Shown here piece by piece: positions 6,290 through 22,267 of a stretch of 26,402 nucleotides of DNA (positions are counted from its first letter, which is position 1; every line of letters starts with the position of its first letter). Source of the stretch: a virus. Location of the stretch: positions 1-26,402 of the IMG/VR virus record IMGVR_UViG_3300025425_000136; one strand, given 5' to 3'. Position numbers and translations under genes: made by a program. The notes beneath the pieces were generated by a model. That model ran no database searches and had not been told where the DNA came from. It saw only the letters and a program-made list of their open reading frames with translations.

Positions 6290-6355
6290 ATGAACAAAGT
6301 AGTATTAGTCACAGGCGGCTTTGATCCAAAGTTTGATAAATACTTGTATGTTTAA
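6290..6355 (+). pseudogene. 5' fragment of a cytidylyltransferase gene, cut by endonuclease insertion
   Basis: A 21-codon reading frame begins MNKVVLVTGGFDP, which matches the start of the complete protein at 7040 (MKVVLCTGGYDP) up to the residue just before its LHSGH catalytic motif. After that it reads unrelated codons and stops at 6353-6355. The codons are mostly different from those at 7040 although the residues are similar, so this is a diverged allele and not a fresh duplication. The breakpoint leads straight into the endonuclease gene, whose promoter and ATG lie inside this fragment. Confidence 0.75.
6335..6342 (+). promoter_or_regulatory. Late-type promoter box of the HNH endonuclease
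   Basis: GATAAATA followed by CTTGT and ATG at 6348. The same module (GATAAATA, then ACTTTGTA, then ATG) precedes the second endonuclease at 21481, although the two enzymes belong to different nuclease families. Confidence 0.55.
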
Positions 6356-7043
6356 GAATAACAAATATACAAGATGGTATAACAGCATTATATCTAATAG
6401 AAAAAATAATCCTTTAGACATATCGGGTTATAAAGAGAATCATCACATAATTCCTAAAAGTTTAGGTGGCTCAAATAAAAAAGAAAATATAGTAGCACTT
6501 ACAGCAAAAGAACATTTTATTTGTCATAGACTTTTGGTTAAAATGACAGAAGGTAACAATAAAGTAAAAATGTCGTATGCTATTAGAACAATGATGATTA
6601 GAGAAAATCCTTACCAGTCAAGATACAAAATATCGTCTAAAGGTTATGAATCTATAATTAAAGAAACTAGAGCAATAATAGGTAAATCACAAACAGGCGA
6701 AAACAATCCGTATTACGGAAGAACTCACTCTGATGAAGTAAGAACCTTAATGAAGGAAAAAAGAAAAATTCAAGATCCTCCTATGCTTGGAAAAACTCAC
6801 AGCGAAAAAACAAAATCTAAACTTCAAATAGCAAATCAAAAACAATTTGAAGATCCTCAACAGATTGAGTTGCGTAAAAAAATAACAAAAGAGCAAATGA
6901 AAGATCCGGAAAGGCGTTATAAAGCCGGTAACGGAAAAAGAGGAAAGTCTTGGTATCATAATCCTGAAACAAAAGAGTGTTCGACTTTCTTTCCTGATAA
7001 TGTACCAGATGGATATATAAAAGGAAGGATTATTAAAAAATGA
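6348..7043 (+). CDS. HNH homing endonuclease with NUMOD3-like repeats
   Basis: Free-standing homing endonuclease of about 231 residues. The N-terminal HNH domain shows HHIIPKSLGG at about residues 32-41, NIVALTAKEHFICH (47-60) with the Asn and His of the motif, then a helical segment. The remainder contains DNA-contact modules of the NUMOD3 type: GENNPYYGRTHSDEVRTLMK and PPMLGKTHSEKTKSKL. The C-terminus is basic (KGRIIKK). I take the ATG at 6348, 5 nt after a late-type promoter box, over the TTG at 6321. It overlaps the next gene by ATGA. The gene lies between a 5' fragment (6290) and a complete copy (7040) of a nucleotidyltransferase gene, so its target is probably the codons just before the HxGH motif. 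Confidence 0.88.
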   Translation: MFKNNKYTRWYNSIISNRKNNPLDISGYKENHHIIPKSLGGSNKKENIVALTAKEHFICHRLLVKMTEGNNKVKMSYAIRTMMIRENPYQSRYKISSKGYESIIKETRAIIGKSQTGENNPYYGRTHSDEVRTLMKEKRKIQDPPMLGKTHSEKTKSKLQIANQKQFEDPQQIELRKKITKEQMKDPERRYKAGNGKRGKSWYHNPETKECSTFFPDNVPDGYIKGRIIKK

Positions 7044-14126: not shown

Positions 14127-15347
14127 ATGACTGAGAAAACAATTGAATCATATCTTGAATTATTAACTGGGTTTGACGGTAATGAAACCTTCACAATCCA
14201 GCCTAGTGATTTTACCATACTCAATAGTATTGCACGACAAGTGCATAAAGGAGTCGGGTTAACTGATAGACAGTATGAAGTAGTAAAAGAAAAACTACTA
14301 TCCTATGCTGATCAATTTACAGCATTAGAATATCCAATACACGAAGCAATCAAAAATACTCGTATACCTATTAGGCATATCGATAGGGCTCGATGGATTC
14401 GCACAGCCTTAATTAAAGATCAATTATATATCGGTGTTCGATTTACATTCAATAAAAAATTAATATCAGCGATAGAAGTTCTTTCTAACATAGAAGAAAG
14501 AGGACTATATAACACCGTTGAAAAAATACATTATTTTATTTTTACCGAAATTAATCTACATAAAGTAATAAATGAATTAAAAGATAAAAGTTTTGAAATA
14601 GAGTTAGAACTACAAGAAAGATACAATTTATTGGAAATGATGCATAACAACAAAAACAATTATATTCCCGGTATATACGGACTTAAATTACAAAACTTAC
14701 ACACTAAAGCAATAGATTATATGATATCGTCTGTCGGAAATCCTGATGTTGATAATCTAGCACTGTATAAAGATAGAAGCCAACTATTTGGTATTAAACA
14801 TTTTGACGAAGGTGATTTAAATAGCAGCATTAATAAACTAACAACACTTAGTCAAAAAATTGTAAAAAGAACACGCCCGCTTATATTAGTTAACAATACT
14901 GAACATACATTTGATAGAGTAGCAGAGTCTCTACTAGAACTTAATAGATATCCTTTATTGGTTTGTTTGAATGACGGCAATGATTTTAGTAGTTTACAAA
15001 CAGTGCATTATAGTTTTAGAAATATTTTTGGCAACAATGACTTCTGTACACTCTACAGAAAAGAAAATGATGTTGCAGAAAATATTGAATTTAATCAATA
15101 TATTAAAGACAATAATCTGAACAATCCTCTTGCAATTAATTCTAAAATAGTGTATACTAATATTAATAAGATGTCAAAGACATTACTAAAATCTAGTTGG
15201 CGTCCTCAGGCAGCTATACTAATGGGGAGTATTCGTTCTACTAAGATGGATACATATTTACAAGAATTAGATTTAGTTATTCATTATGACACTGATATTA
15301 GTCCGTTTAAAAAATACAGTACACCACAAGTAATAGAGAAAATTTAA
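14127..15347 (+). CDS. Unknown protein upstream of uvsW
   Basis: 406-residue protein that I cannot assign. It has no Walker A, zinc or membrane motif. The N-terminal third contains FTIQPSDFTILNSIARQVHK and GLTDRQYEVVKEKLLSYADQ, resembling segments of proteins that accompany replication genes in marine T4-like phages. The middle is helical and charged. The C-terminal half (RPLILVNNTEHTFDRVAESL, RYPLLVCLNDGNDF, WRPQAAILMGSIRSTKMDTY and LDLVIHYDTDISPF) has the rhythm of a helicase-like RecA domain lacking the nucleotide-binding loop. Its stop overlaps the uvsW start (TAATGG), so it is coupled to UvsW and probably works with it. It is driven by the strong leaderless promoter at 14092. Confidence 0.75.
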   Translation: MTEKTIESYLELLTGFDGNETFTIQPSDFTILNSIARQVHKGVGLTDRQYEVVKEKLLSYADQFTALEYPIHEAIKNTRIPIRHIDRARWIRTALIKDQLYIGVRFTFNKKLISAIEVLSNIEERGLYNTVEKIHYFIFTEINLHKVINELKDKSFEIELELQERYNLLEMMHNNKNNYIPGIYGLKLQNLHTKAIDYMISSVGNPDVDNLALYKDRSQLFGIKHFDEGDLNSSINKLTTLSQKIVKRTRPLILVNNTEHTFDRVAESLLELNRYPLLVCLNDGNDFSSLQTVHYSFRNIFGNNDFCTLYRKENDVAENIEFNQYIKDNNLNNPLAINSKIVYTNINKMSKTLLKSSWRPQAAILMGSIRSTKMDTYLQELDLVIHYDTDISPFKKYSTPQVIEKI

Positions 15348-15880
15348 TGGCAAGTTGCAGATTAATTATTGAAGACGAAGTCAATATTAAGCTAGAAGGC
15401 TTAGAGGTAGACGTTCGACGTAAAATTGCAAACGCATTAAAGTTTGAAGTGCCATATGCAAAGCACATGCCTCAGTATAAACTAGGACGATGGGACGGTA
15501 AAGTTGCTTTCTTTGGTATTGGCGGCTCAGGCTATGTTAATCACCTTGATGTTGTTTGTGATATTTTACAAAAAAATAATGTCGAAATTGTAGACATCCA
15601 AGACAATAGGCATCCTATTACTTTAAACTTTACTCCAGTAACAGAAAGCTACTGGGCTGATCAAGATGTGCGTTGGCCTAAAGGACACCCAGCAGAAGGT
15701 GAGCTTATTATGTTGCGTGATTATCAAGTAGAAGCAATTAATAATTTCCTTGCTAATCCACAGAGTCTGCAACAGATTGCAACTGGAGCAGGTAAATGTC
15801 GAACTTATGATTCTACAATGGATATAGATGTAGGTAATTCTGAGTTTGCTGAATATTTGCTAAATAATAGTAAGAAATAG
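15347..15880 (+). CDS. uvsW: UvsW N-terminal part fused to split-intein N fragment
   Basis: 177 residues. Residues 1-150 are the N-terminal part of UvsW, the SF2 helicase of T4 that remodels branched DNA and R-loops: a small N-terminal domain, then the Q-motif-like LRDYQVEAINNFL, then Walker A QIATGAGK at 143-150. At that Lys the extein stops and residue 151 is Cys, starting the intein: CRTYDSTMDIDVGNSEFAEY, then seven more residues and a stop, 27 in all. The block fits intein block A of class 1 inteins (nucleophilic Cys1). The rest of the intein and of UvsW is encoded at 16999-18417. The start overlaps the upstream stop. This half alone cannot bind ATP properly, because the Walker A Thr comes from the other half. 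Confidence 0.93.
   Translation: MASCRLIIEDEVNIKLEGLEVDVRRKIANALKFEVPYAKHMPQYKLGRWDGKVAFFGIGGSGYVNHLDVVCDILQKNNVEIVDIQDNRHPITLNFTPVTESYWADQDVRWPKGHPAEGELIMLRDYQVEAINNFLANPQSLQQIATGAGKCRTYDSTMDIDVGNSEFAEYLLNNSKK
15779..15790 (+). repeat. 12-bp direct repeat, copy 1 (Walker A codons of uvsW)
   Basis: GCAACTGGAGCA encodes Ala-Thr-Gly-Ala of the UvsW Walker A motif. The same 12 bases recur at 15880-15891, just before the endonuclease gene. Confidence 0.95.
15797..15877 (+). other. IntN: 27-residue N fragment of an atypically split intein
   Basis: Begins with the TGT codon for Cys1 directly after the Walker A AAA codon and ends at the stop codon 15878-15880. Most natural split inteins have an N fragment near 100 residues and a C fragment near 35. 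Here the break is shortly after block A, as in the rare atypically split inteins such as AceL-TerL. The fragment is acidic, with Asp at 5, 9 and 11 and Glu at 16 and 19. Confidence 0.9.
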
Positions 15881-15891
15881 CAACTGGAGCA
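15880..15891 (+). repeat. 12-bp direct repeat, copy 2 (endonuclease leader)
   Basis: Second copy of GCAACTGGAGCA. It contains GGAG at 15886-15889, seven nt before the endonuclease ATG at 15897, and therefore acts as its ribosome binding site. Its first base is the last base of the IntN stop codon. Confidence 0.93.
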
Positions 15892-15896
15892 ATTCT

Positions 15897-17009
15897 ATGA
15901 ACGTAGCAACTTTTTGTAAAACATATCAGCGAAAAATGTGGAAGTCGATGATTACTAGGAAAAAATTAGATTTCACTTTATTGGATGTAATAACGTTGAA
16001 TAATGAGCAACTTTATTACATACCGTATAATGGATATCATAAATTTACAGTAAGTACTTCACAATGCTTAAAGTGTAATGCAGCGCTAGTTATCGGATTT
16101 AGAAAAGATGAGTTTATAGTATCAACATGCAAATGTTCAGCAGATAACAAGAATTATGCTACTTTAGAAAAGTTATCAACTGTATTTCCTGTAAGTGAAG
16201 CAAATGACGTATTATCATCATTTGCAGAGCGAAAAACACGGAATTTACAAAATGTACTAACTCATTGGACATCGCGCGGACATACTCACGAGGACGCAGT
16301 ACAATTAGTGTCAGACGTACAAGCGAGTCGATCGTCACTGTCACCTGCTGCACAGAAAGGTGCACGGGGGTATTCGATGAGAACCCCCGAATACTGGATT
16401 AAGCAAGGGTATTCTAAATCAGACGCTGTGCAGAAAGTAAGTAATCTTCAAGTTACAAACGGCTTAGAGTTTTATGTTAACAGATATGGCACTGATGAAG
16501 GCAAAGTACAGTACGATAAGCGAATGACAGAATGGTTAACATCATACACTCGTGCTATGGAACTAGATCCTACAATTAATGAAAGAAAAATGGTCGGGTT
16601 TTGCAAAGCATCAAAAGAGTCGTTAACCGTGTTAATGCCAGTCTATGAAAAGTATAACGATAAAATTCGTATATACTTAGGCATTGACGGAAATACTGAA
16701 TATTTTTTGCGCGACGACGATAGTATACGATTTTATGATTTTACGATACCCGAGCTTAAAATAATTGTTGAGTTTAATGGATCTAAGTTCCATGCTAATG
16801 CAGAGTTATTATCTGAGCAACAACTGCTAGAATGGAAGAGCTTATTTTCAAATGAATCAGCAGACTTGGTTATTGCAAAGGATACTGTAAAGCGAAAAAT
16901 AGCAGAATGTCACGGATACACATTGTTAACAATTTGGGATACTGACGACGTTGACCAAGCAATTACTAAAATTACAAATTTAATAGAAGAAAAACTTAAT
17001 GAAATTTAA
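15897..17009 (+). CDS. Free-standing Vsr-like homing endonuclease within the split intein locus
   Basis: 370-residue protein in a frame different from both UvsW parts. It has an N-terminal zinc-ribbon-like region (CLKC at 57-60, CKC at 78-80), then two related modules, THWTSRGHTHEDAVQLVSDV (122-141) and EYWIKQGYSKSDAVQKVSNL (165-184), likely DNA-contact repeats, then FYVNRYGTDEGKVQYDKRM. The C-terminal domain (about 255-365) resembles the Vsr-like, EDxHD-type nuclease fold: RFYDFTIPELKIIVEFNGS ending FHAN (Asp281, His299) and the last strand GYTLLTIWDTD. This family was described in fractured genes, where such an enzyme sits between split-intein halves. The start is set by GGAG in the 12-bp repeat. 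Its 3' end overlaps the IntC start by 11 nt. The target is presumably the uninterrupted Walker A region of uvsW. Confidence 0.85.
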   Translation: MNVATFCKTYQRKMWKSMITRKKLDFTLLDVITLNNEQLYYIPYNGYHKFTVSTSQCLKCNAALVIGFRKDEFIVSTCKCSADNKNYATLEKLSTVFPVSEANDVLSSFAERKTRNLQNVLTHWTSRGHTHEDAVQLVSDVQASRSSLSPAAQKGARGYSMRTPEYWIKQGYSKSDAVQKVSNLQVTNGLEFYVNRYGTDEGKVQYDKRMTEWLTSYTRAMELDPTINERKMVGFCKASKESLTVLMPVYEKYNDKIRIYLGIDGNTEYFLRDDDSIRFYDFTIPELKIIVEFNGSKFHANAELLSEQQLLEWKSLFSNESADLVIAKDTVKRKIAECHGYTLLTIWDTDDVDQAITKITNLIEEKLNEI

Positions 17010-17403
17010 CATACCAATAGGGGAACTAGCAGAGTCGATTGCGGAGTACAAAGGAGTACTATTAAACGATAACTGCGAAATTAATATTAAAGATCTTGAT
17101 TGTAAAGTTAATACACCATCAGGAACTGCTACTATTAATATTATAATTAAAAAAGAAAAGTTAGAAGGCATAAAACTATTACTTGCAAATGGTATAGAAA
17201 TAAAGTGTGCTAATAAGCATATATTAAGATATAATAATGCAGACGTATTTGCAGATTCATTAGCAATTGGCGACTCGGTAGAAACTATTAACGGGAATGT
17301 TAAGGTTAGTAGTATTAACAATATTGACGATACTACATTTTACGATATCGGAATAGATGCACCGTACTTATATTATGATGCAGACGGAGTATTACATCAT
17401 AAT
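16999..17403 (+). other. IntC: 135-residue C fragment of the split intein
   Basis: Runs from the initiator Met to the terminal Asn codon AAT (17401-17403); the next codon, ACA, is Thr +1 of the extein. The first residues, MKFNIPIGELAESIAEYKGV, resume intein sequence after block A. There is no endonuclease domain inside it; that role is filled by the separate gene at 15897. Confidence 0.9.
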
Positions 17404-18417
17404 ACAATTACTACAGCAACATTATCGCACATGGTTGAGCCGTACGGTCGTAGTTTAGTTATTGTTCCTAACAAATCACTAGTTGAACAAACTGAAGAAG
17501 ACTATATCAATTGCGGGCTTGACGTTGGAGTGTACTTTGGCGACAGAAAGAACCTAGGTAAGACTCACACTATTTGCACTTGGCAGAGTTTGAATATTCT
17601 TGACAAGAAGAACAAGGACGGCAGCGCAGTGTTAAGTCTTGCAGAGTTCCTTGAAGGTGTAACCGCTGTTATTGTTGATGAATGCCACCAAGCCAAAGCA
17701 GAAGTGCTAAAGAACTTGCTTACACGCAACTTGCGTAACGCTCCTATTCGCTGGGGACTAACTGGTACAGTACCTAAAGAAAAGTTTGAGTTTGAAAGTA
17801 TTCATGCTAGTCTTGGTCCAGTGATTGGAAGTATCACTGCTAAGTCATTACAAGATCAGGGTGTACTATCTAAGTGTCATGTTAATGTATGTCAACTAAT
17901 TGATGTCGTTGCACACAGTGATTATCAGAGCGAATTAAAATATTTAACATCAGACACAGCTAGACTACAATACATTGCTAAGATGATGAACAAGGTATCA
18001 CAAACAGGTAACACACTAATTCTAGTAGACAGGATTAGTGCAGGCGAAACTCTTCGAGACTTAATGCCTGGCAGTACTTTTGTAAGTGGTGCTGTAAAAG
18101 TTAAAGACAGGAAAGAAACTTATGATACAATTCGTGAAGGAACAAATGAAGTCATTATCGCAACCTACGGAGTTGCATCGGTGGGACTTAATATTCCTCG
18201 TATTTTTAATCTTGTTCTTCTTGAACCTGGCAAAAGTTTTGTAAGGGTAATCCAAAGTATTGGTAGAGGCGTTCGTAAGGCAAAAGACAAAGACTTCGTA
18301 CAAATATGGGACTTGACATCAACATGCAAGTTTGCGAAGCGGCACTTGACTCAGCGTAAGAAGTTTTATGCCGAAGCACAGTATCCTTATACAATTGAAA
18401 AAATTGACTGGAATTAA
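16999..18417 (+). CDS. uvsW: Split-intein C fragment fused to UvsW C-terminal part
   Basis: 472 residues. Residues 1-135 are the intein C fragment: a block-B-like LLANGIEIKCANKHILRY, where His74 fits the conserved block B His and the usual Thr is replaced; then block F/G, TTFYDIGIDAPYLYYDADGV ending LHHN, with penultimate His and terminal Asn135. Residue 136 is Thr (+1), which both acts as the splicing nucleophile and completes Walker A as GAGKT. The extein continues with SLVIVPNKSLVEQTEEDY, DECH (DEXH box), WGLTGT (motif III) and QSIGRGVRK (motif VI). The joined exteins are 150 + 337 = 487 residues, near T4 UvsW (503). The start ATG overlaps the endonuclease end. No frameshift disrupts either part, so a working spliced helicase is expected. 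Confidence 0.93.
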   Translation: MKFNIPIGELAESIAEYKGVLLNDNCEINIKDLDCKVNTPSGTATINIIIKKEKLEGIKLLLANGIEIKCANKHILRYNNADVFADSLAIGDSVETINGNVKVSSINNIDDTTFYDIGIDAPYLYYDADGVLHHNTITTATLSHMVEPYGRSLVIVPNKSLVEQTEEDYINCGLDVGVYFGDRKNLGKTHTICTWQSLNILDKKNKDGSAVLSLAEFLEGVTAVIVDECHQAKAEVLKNLLTRNLRNAPIRWGLTGTVPKEKFEFESIHASLGPVIGSITAKSLQDQGVLSKCHVNVCQLIDVVAHSDYQSELKYLTSDTARLQYIAKMMNKVSQTGNTLILVDRISAGETLRDLMPGSTFVSGAVKVKDRKETYDTIREGTNEVIIATYGVASVGLNIPRIFNLVLLEPGKSFVRVIQSIGRGVRKAKDKDFVQIWDLTSTCKFAKRHLTQRKKFYAEAQYPYTIEKIDWN

Positions 18418-21245: not shown

Positions 21246-21435
21246 ACGAAGCCTTACTAAAACAATTACTTGGAGGTTCACAGGAAGCGGCGCAACGTTT
21301 GTAATTTCATATTTGATATTAGGAAATATTACCGCAGCGGGATCTATTGCATTAATTCAGCTTGTTGCAAATACCTTGTTATATTATGCTCATGAAAGAA
21401 TTTGGAATAAAATAACTTGGGGACAAAATGTTTGA
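21232..21435 (+). CDS. DUF2061 small membrane protein
   Basis: 67-residue protein with the DUF2061 pattern: KRSLTKTITWRFTGSGATF at the N-terminus, a first hydrophobic segment ATFVISYLILG, a second TAAGSIALIQLVANTLLYY, and a conserved end YYAHERIWNKITWGQ. Two membrane segments with charged ends are predicted. DUF2061 proteins are of unknown function and occur near sulfate assimilation genes in some bacteria. Here it overlaps the upstream kinase by 14 nt and the nucleotidyltransferase fragment downstream by 8 nt. Confidence 0.88.
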   Translation: MDSNKRSLTKTITWRFTGSGATFVISYLILGNITAAGSIALIQLVANTLLYYAHERIWNKITWGQNV

Positions 21436-21472
21436 TTATAAAAAACCTACAACACAGATGCTAGGAAGATGG
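21428..21472 (+). pseudogene. 5' fragment of the nucleotidyltransferase gene, cut by endonuclease insertion
   Basis: Fifteen codons reading MFDYKKPTTQMLGRW match the start of the complete gene at 22260 (PCSQMLGRFQPWHPGH) up to the residues just before its HxGH motif. In the shared QMLGR the codons are CAG ATG CTA GGA AGA here against CAA ATG CTC GGC AGA there. The fragment overlaps the DUF2061 stop as the original gene would have done and runs in frame into the endonuclease. A fused product is therefore possible, but the endonuclease has its own promoter and ribosome site. Confidence 0.72.
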
Positions 21473-21480
21473 CACGATAT

Positions 21481-21488
21481 GATAAATA
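21481..21488 (+). promoter_or_regulatory. Late-type promoter box of the GIY-YIG endonuclease
   Basis: GATAAATA, 8 nt before ATG 21497 and 20 nt before ATG 21509, the latter with GGAG at 21499-21502. The surrounding bases resemble the module before the HNH endonuclease at 6335. Confidence 0.55.
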
Positions 21489-21508
21489 ACTTTGTAATGG
21501 AGAAGGTT

Positions 21509-22267
21509 ATGGACTCATTTGTATATCGTTGGACAAACAAGACATCGAATAAGATTTATATAGGATTCCACAAAGGAACAGAAGACGACGGCTATGTATG
21601 TTCTTCGGGATCTGAAAAGTTTTGGAACGATTTTAATAATCCTGATTATATTTGGGAGAGAGAAATTCTACACAAAGGCCTGATGAAAGAATGCCAAGAA
21701 GTTGAAAATAGAATGTTAAATGAATTGGATATTACATCTGAAAATGTATATAATCAACGAAATAATATAATGTTTAATTTGGACGACGAAGTAAGAAAAA
21801 AGTTAAGTGAAGCCGCAAAGAAAAGAAATCAAAATCCTGAGTATATAGAAAAACTAAGACAAGCATCTCTGGCATTATGGAAAGACCCTGCTCACAGAGA
21901 AAGAATTAAACAAACACAAACAGGTAAATCTGTAAGTGAAGAAACAAAACAAAAACTACGAGAAGCAAATCTAGGAAAGAAACAGTCGAAAGAAACAATC
22001 GCTAAAAGGGTTGAAAAACTTAAAGGCCATACAGTCGCTGAAGAAACTAAAAGAAAAATATCAGAAAGTTCTAAAGGTAAAGTAGTTAGTAAAGAAGTAT
22101 TAATGCGACAATATGGAATATGCACCCCATATGGCGAGTTTGAAAGTATTTTGGCATTTGTAAGATATACAAAAGAGCACAATATAAGTAAATTGAAATG
22201 GAAAGGGTCGGTAGTTAAAAAACTAAAAGATCCTACGCAACTCGAATGGAGATATTTAAATGAGTAA
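21509..22267 (+). CDS. GIY-YIG homing endonuclease with NUMOD3-like repeats
   Basis: About 252 residues from the ATG at 21509, which has GGAG six nt upstream; the frame is open back to 21428 through the nucleotidyltransferase fragment. The GIY-YIG nuclease domain is at the N-terminus: FVYRWTNKTSNKIYIGFHKG at 4-23, WEREILHKGLMKECQEVENR with the catalytic Glu region, then QRNNIMFNLDDEVR. The middle and C-terminal parts hold repeated short DNA-contact modules, including TGKSVSEETKQKLREANLGK, KGHTVAEETKRKISESSKGK and a final YGICTPYGEFESILAFV. This resembles the Seg endonucleases of T4. Its stop overlaps the start of the intact target gene. The nuclease family differs from the one at 6348 although the insertion style is the same. 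Confidence 0.9.
   Translation: MDSFVYRWTNKTSNKIYIGFHKGTEDDGYVCSSGSEKFWNDFNNPDYIWEREILHKGLMKECQEVENRMLNELDITSENVYNQRNNIMFNLDDEVRKKLSEAAKKRNQNPEYIEKLRQASLALWKDPAHRERIKQTQTGKSVSEETKQKLREANLGKKQSKETIAKRVEKLKGHTVAEETKRKISESSKGKVVSKEVLMRQYGICTPYGEFESILAFVRYTKEHNISKLKWKGSVVKKLKDPTQLEWRYLNE

Follow-up and report, generated by a model that had tools for sequence, protein, structure and literature searches.

We analysed a 26,402-nucleotide stretch of viral DNA (IMG/VR record IMGVR_UViG_3300025425_000136, positions 1-26,402; one strand, 5′ to 3′), referred to here as the window, in which the helicase gene uvsW of a T4-like large phage is broken inside the ATP-binding Walker A motif. The break is very probably the site of a split intein with a Vsr-like endonuclease gene lodged between its halves, so that the two parts of UvsW would be joined by protein trans-splicing and the cassette would spread by homing. 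Relatives of uvsW were found by IMG/VR searches, and the contigs and sequences compared with the window are labelled with L-numbers.

The helicase is encoded by two gene pieces on the plus strand, 15347-15880 and 16999-18417. The first consists of an N-terminal extein (N-extein; 15347-15796, 150 codons) ending in the Walker A sequence QIATGAGK, followed by an N-terminal intein half (IntN; 15797-15877, stop codon 15878-15880) of 27 amino acids, CRTYDSTMDIDVGNSEFAEYLLNNSKK. IntN begins precisely at the GK/T codon boundary of the motif with a cysteine (Cys1), encoded by TGT in all members of the family, and this division of the intein is an N-proximal, ‘atypical’ split. The second piece starts at its own ATG with the C-terminal intein half (IntC; 16999-17403, 135 codons), which ends in LHHN, and resumes the helicase as a 337-amino-acid C-extein (17404-18414, stop to 18417) that opens with threonine at position +1 (TITTATL). 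Between them lies a complete, free-standing Vsr-like (EDxHD-type) endonuclease gene (15897-17006, stop to 17009; 370 codons, plus strand), which has its own ribosome site, GGAG, 7 nucleotides 5′ of the ATG, and overlaps the start of IntC by 11 nucleotides. The three genes occupy three different frames, all free of internal stops. Joining the exteins restores GAGKT and gives a protein of 487 amino acids, the same length as the uninterrupted UvsW of L001, to which it aligns without gaps at 93% identity (94% for the N-extein and 93% for the C-extein). An earlier sequence-only reading of this DNA had proposed the main elements of this organisation, from the N-extein ending in ATGAGK and the cysteine that follows it to the HHN end, the resumption with threonine and the endonuclease in the third frame, and the coordinates and frames confirm them.

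Both exteins are recognizable as UvsW. The N-extein matches the Pfam domain UvsW_N (E = 0.0018) and phrog_16259, a DNA helicase family (E = 7e-13), and its ratio of non-synonymous to synonymous substitution rates (dN/dS) is 0.05-0.18. For the C-extein the best solved relative is the structure of T4 UvsW (2oca; E = 1e-22); membership of the two-piece protein in the UvsW helicases is further indicated by a match to phrog_16 (E = 3e-62) and by the presence of superfamily 2 helicase motifs.

IntC carries the signature of an intein in both its sequence and its predicted structure. By sequence alone it matches VidaL among solved inteins (E = 3e-4), and a profile built with its relatives matches gp41-1 (1e-11), CatC (2e-11) and VidaL (3e-11). 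The AlphaFold model of IntC has a predicted local distance difference test score (pLDDT) of 90.8 and superposes on VidaL with a root-mean-square deviation of 1.3 Å over 102 columns; a Foldseek search with this model returned 55 PDB structures at E ≤ 0.001, and every one of the 50 listed is an intein or an intein-like domain. The block-B histidine, the terminal asparagine with its preceding histidine, and Thr+1 are all present, and Cys1, H74, H134, N135 and Thr136 are invariant in the UvsW members of the family and in those from TerL, gp46-like and UvsX genes. These matches, the predicted fold and the invariant residues support the split intein claimed by the sequence-only reading, which we assign to class 1 (HINT fold) as a naturally occurring form divided near its N terminus. 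The assignment of the putative IntN is based on its position, Cys1, its co-mobility with the other parts and its conservation in the family. Split phage enzymes that function as non-covalent complexes exist, among them the nrdA product of phage Aeh1 and the 43A/43B polymerase (PMC2988022), yet an active helicase assembled in this way from unspliced halves is very improbable here: the break falls within the P-loop between lysine and threonine, the additional 27 and 135 residues form an intein with every splice residue kept, and the P-loop would be unable to form with a domain wedged inside it.

The endonuclease in the break has a homologue in Aeromonas phage Aes123, annotated as ‘putative VSR endonuclease’ (phage tblastn; E = 4e-8, about 26% identity), and others among phage VSR endonucleases, including that of Tenacibaculum phage PTm1 (E = 2e-6). 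It belongs to phrog_22677 (E = 1.9e-14), a family matched by seven of nine family members, and residues D281, E292, G295, D329 and K332 are invariant in nine endonuclease sequences. Identification came from PHROGs and phage tblastn; Pfam and NCBIfam gave only sub-threshold matches, a hidden Markov model of the nine sequences found no match among PDB sequences, and no relatives were found in 84,980 bacterial and archaeal genomes. The three structures ranked highest by Foldseek are Vsr (1cw0 and 1vsr) and the homing endonuclease I-Bth0305I (3r3p), at E values of 0.17-0.73, a ranking that is supportive only, given the poor model from which it derives. Homology and ranking agree with the earlier description of the enzyme as Vsr-like. 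Between lineages, the dN/dS of the endonuclease is 0.13-0.22, indicating purifying selection and therefore that the gene has been kept functional.

Directly before the endonuclease gene is a near copy, ATAGCAACTGGAGCA (15877-15891, plus strand), of the extein target flank ATTGCAACTGGAGCA (15776-15790, plus strand; encoding IATGA), matching it at 14 of 15 positions and including the GGAG. The lineage whose endonuclease is 59% identical to that of the window has ATAGCAACAGGGGCA at this position, with changes at third positions only. The copy is absent from the TerL, gp46-like and UvsX relatives, and although it fits its own flank well it fits the empty-site flanks as a whole barely better than shuffled sequences do. 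We regard it as a lead: it may be an insertion scar, an operator or autoregulatory site of the endonuclease, or in part just the ribosome site.

By hand count, about 27 IMG/VR contigs carry the intein at the Walker A site of UvsW, in five main genotypes: type a (the window, L082 and L083), type b (L084, L085, L087 and L088), type c (L086, L090 and L097), type d (L089 and L096) and type e (L010, L091-L095 and L105). Type e has the same three-gene order, with an endonuclease 59% and an IntC 55% identical to those of the window. Endonuclease-less forms also occur at this site (L127, L133 and L184). Many contigs, comprising most of L001-L080, have an uninterrupted uvsW, in which this codon position is a true empty site. 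We found no cultured phage with an intein at the Walker A site of UvsW. The codon-exact joint, the recurrence on independently assembled contigs and the many empty sites at the same codon place the arrangement far beyond chance.

Comparison of the window with type b and c phages reveals how the element moves. Identity is 50-85% in the flanks and 98-100% across 15797-17403, which spans IntN, the endonuclease and IntC, and the edges of this block coincide with the limits of the intein. The endonuclease has thus moved together with both halves of the split intein, which is what homing would produce. For L089 the block of high cassette identity stops inside IntC, at about the equivalent of position 17200 in the window, placing a recombination edge inside one half of the intein. 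L081 is identical to the window as far as IntC extends and continues from there as an L086-like phage; it looks like either a recombinant or a chimera formed through the shared cassette.

Endonuclease insertions can disrupt genes, and the loss of a single base in types b and c has joined the IntN and endonuclease frames, so that IntN reads through into the endonuclease. These facts would fit a uvsW gene destroyed by the insertion, with another helicase taking over, but such a dead gene is even less probable than a helicase assembled without splicing. Every genotype has intact frames; the extein motifs are conserved, the splice residues do not vary and dN/dS is low; the split state is found across lineages only 47-66% identical in their exteins, and no frameshifts or stops were seen in the exteins of fractured alleles. 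The fusion in types b and c implies that a long IntN tail is tolerated or that the endonuclease is made from its own start. An assembly artefact, with broken frames or contigs chimeric at the repeated cassette, is refuted for the arrangement and possible for L081 alone, because the breaks recur in many samples (L082 and L083, from other samples, repeat the window arrangement, which in L082 extends to both flanks of the cassette), in five distinct genotypes and in three endonuclease-less variants, and the uninterrupted homologues are true empty sites.

In the trans-splicing mechanism that we favour, the two UvsW halves would be translated separately and IntN and IntC would associate, whereupon Cys1, the His-Asn pair at the end of IntC and Thr+1 would carry out trans-splicing, removing the intein and rebuilding ATGAGK-T in a 487-amino-acid UvsW. 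The endonuclease would cut intein-less uvsW of co-infecting phages near the Walker A codons, and repair would copy IntN, endonuclease and IntC as one cassette. We can soundly infer that ATP binding by UvsW would depend ‘completely’ on trans-splicing, as the sequence-only reading put it, and unspliced UvsW would be inactive. Several points weigh against this mechanism. Both the splicing reaction and cutting at the Walker A site are steps that we infer from sequence. Of the two halves searched, IntC found matches and the 27-residue IntN, being too short, gave no significant database match of its own. The endonuclease is poorly modelled by AlphaFold (pLDDT 52). Finally, the block-F histidine is replaced by tyrosine in the window cassette (APYLYY), which could slow C-terminal cleavage; L089, L010 and L184 have histidine at this position. 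The block-F histidine is an accessory residue and is not absolutely required.

A second intein site lies further along the same gene, at the Walker B motif (motif II); like the near copy of the extein flank, it had gone unnoticed in the sequence-only reading. In the window it is empty, and its position as read from the window sequence is 17683-17688 (plus strand), the GAA/TGC codons of DE/CH. The site is occupied in L084-L090 (types b, c and d) and in L127, which has no endonuclease at its first site. It is also occupied in L081, which we set aside as proof of double fracture because it may be a chimera; other contigs carry the claim. Eight or nine related contigs have a doubly fractured UvsW, made up of five genes and three extein pieces divided at GK/T and DE/CH (for example, L086:4452-8837 and L089:1538-5912), and removal of both inteins leaves a gapless protein of 484-487 amino acids. 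The second intein is split differently from the first, into a 100-amino-acid IntN and a 35-amino-acid IntC, and scores above the cut-off for the Pfam family Intein_splicing. Its endonuclease is of another family, with a TnsA-like N domain and NUMOD3, and is unrelated to the Vsr-like enzyme. An ATAAATA-type CATAAATA precedes the second-site endonuclease in several lineages (for example, L086:7072 and equivalents), and in L120 and L121 a terminase gene is broken close to Walker B, with a nuclease there that is a relative of the second-site UvsW endonuclease.

In L117-L119, L135, L137 and L138 the only fracture is the one at Walker B. A split intein at this site, accompanied by a TnsA-like/NUMOD3 endonuclease, is also carried by cultured T4-like phages, namely Salmonella phages (S16, STP4-a and others) and Proteus phage PM2 (L193), with 62% IntN identity. 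In S16 the pieces are gp114, gp114.1 and gp115 (L192), and loci of the S16/PM2 type are annotated as helicase, hypothetical protein and helicase, with the intein unmentioned.

We consider it likely that in the window lineage two unrelated cassettes have each fractured UvsW, one with a Vsr-like endonuclease and an N-proximal split at Walker A and the other with a TnsA-like endonuclease and a canonical split at Walker B, that its sisters splice three polypeptides in tandem, and that steps of intein evolution have been preserved. The middle piece of a doubly fractured UvsW would have the layout IntC1-extein-IntN2, which cyclises proteins if the halves pair. The two different split sites may prevent this: because the inteins are split at different places, IntN2 and IntC1 cover overlapping parts of the fold and should not pair. 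Our search of the literature found no description of a natural double split intein; tandem splicing of three segments has been described as an engineered scheme (PMC12707363).

The family also records the loss of the endonuclease. At the Walker A site, L127 (5918-6405), L133 and L184 (4911-5405) have no endonuclease, and the intein is still correctly split with the IntC start codon retained; the split state is therefore maintained independently of the endonuclease. In L127 and L133 the IntN stop and IntC start overlap (TTAATG), and the preceding sequence resembles the last ~20 nucleotides of the endonuclease gene. Endonuclease-less split inteins occur at the second site in L136 (1757-2201) and L168, where IntN ends with C-terminal residues of the lost endonuclease (FDINTQNKIKNLYEAY). 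The second site of L184, and that of L091, whose first site holds a split intein with endonuclease, are each occupied by a contiguous mini-intein, a form that may be ancestral or may have arisen by re-fusion. The family thus preserves empty sites, split inteins with an endonuclease, split inteins after endonuclease loss and contiguous mini-inteins.

The same endonuclease and IntC family is present at the Walker A motifs of other phage ATPases: TerL (L098), gp46-like proteins (L099 and L100), UvsX (L101, L102 and the upstream part of L184) and PhoH (L186). The endonuclease of L101 and L102 keeps the DNA-binding repeats, and its head seems to be GIY-YIG-like instead of Vsr-like.

Elsewhere in the window, the neighbours of uvsW include genes for UvsX, a gp32-like protein, terminase and primase. 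There are two more free-standing endonuclease genes, at 6290-7043 (HNH/NUMOD3) and 21428-22267 (GIY-YIG-like/NUMOD3). Each is preceded by a short segment similar to the 5′ end of the gene that follows it (MNKVVLVTGGFDP/MKVVLCTGGYDPLHSGH and QMLGRW/QMLGRFQPWHPGH, respectively), and both segments end at nucleotidyltransferase HxGH motifs. The T4-late-promoter-like sequence ATAAATA occurs five times (563, 6278, 6336, 21482 and 23691), which is rarer than chance, always on the plus strand and mostly just 5′ of gene starts.

Fractured genes were reportedly defined by Dassa et al. in 2009 as conserved replication or repair genes interrupted by a split intein with a Vsr-like endonuclease between the halves. 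The uvsW locus fits the ‘fractured gene’ organisation that the sequence-only reading had recognized: a conserved DNA synthesis and repair gene in a phage, a split intein, and a free-standing endonuclease in its own frame between the halves. It would differ from the genes of Dassa et al. 2009 in its host, uvsW at Walker A, and in having sister loci where uvsW is fractured again or the intein stays split without its endonuclease. That reading was unaware of any description at uvsW, and our literature search likewise turned up no paper reporting such an intein in UvsW, the original host list of Dassa et al. 2009 lying outside that search and comparison; papers mentioning both terms concern, where checked, other genes.

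Atypically split inteins have an IntN of 15-37 amino acids and a long IntC (PMC13014065). The uvsW intein shares this short-IntN, long-IntC division with VidaL, AceL-TerL, GOS-TerL and Cat, and resembles VidaL and CatC in sequence and predicted fold; its relatives in TerL (L098), a gp46-like protein (L099) and UvsX (L101 and L102) are likewise at Walker A. Unlike the VidaL-type inteins it combines a 27-amino-acid IntN with an endonuclease gene in the break, and it is 28% identical to VidaL over the fold-aligned part. In polB of Aeromonas phage Aes123 (JN377899), genes for an N-intein, a homologous VSR endonuclease and a C-intein overlap in the same order, but the host gene is different, the intein is cysteine-less and the split is canonical. 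Phage T4 has a free-standing GIY-YIG endonuclease gene, segE, between inh and uvsW that targets uvsW (PMC2988022). Here too a homing endonuclease exploits uvsW, but segE lies beside an uninterrupted uvsW, its product has another nuclease fold and no intein is involved.

The window locus extends the known fractured genes, and the family, with its two independent fractures and intermediates, is the more interesting result. UvsW, whose ATP-binding loop is interrupted midway, joins the fractured phage genes, and the identity profiles show that the endonuclease and the two intein halves move as one homing cassette. At this one gene a site may be empty, hold a split intein with its endonuclease, hold one that is still split after losing it (at the second site with a scar) or hold a contiguous intein, and the origin and persistence of naturally split inteins can be tested in the uvsW family. 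The Walker B version that sits unannotated in cultured phage S16 makes direct mass-spectrometric proof possible. If true, the doubly fractured UvsW would be a natural case of three-piece tandem trans-splicing, until now an engineered scheme (PMC12707363).

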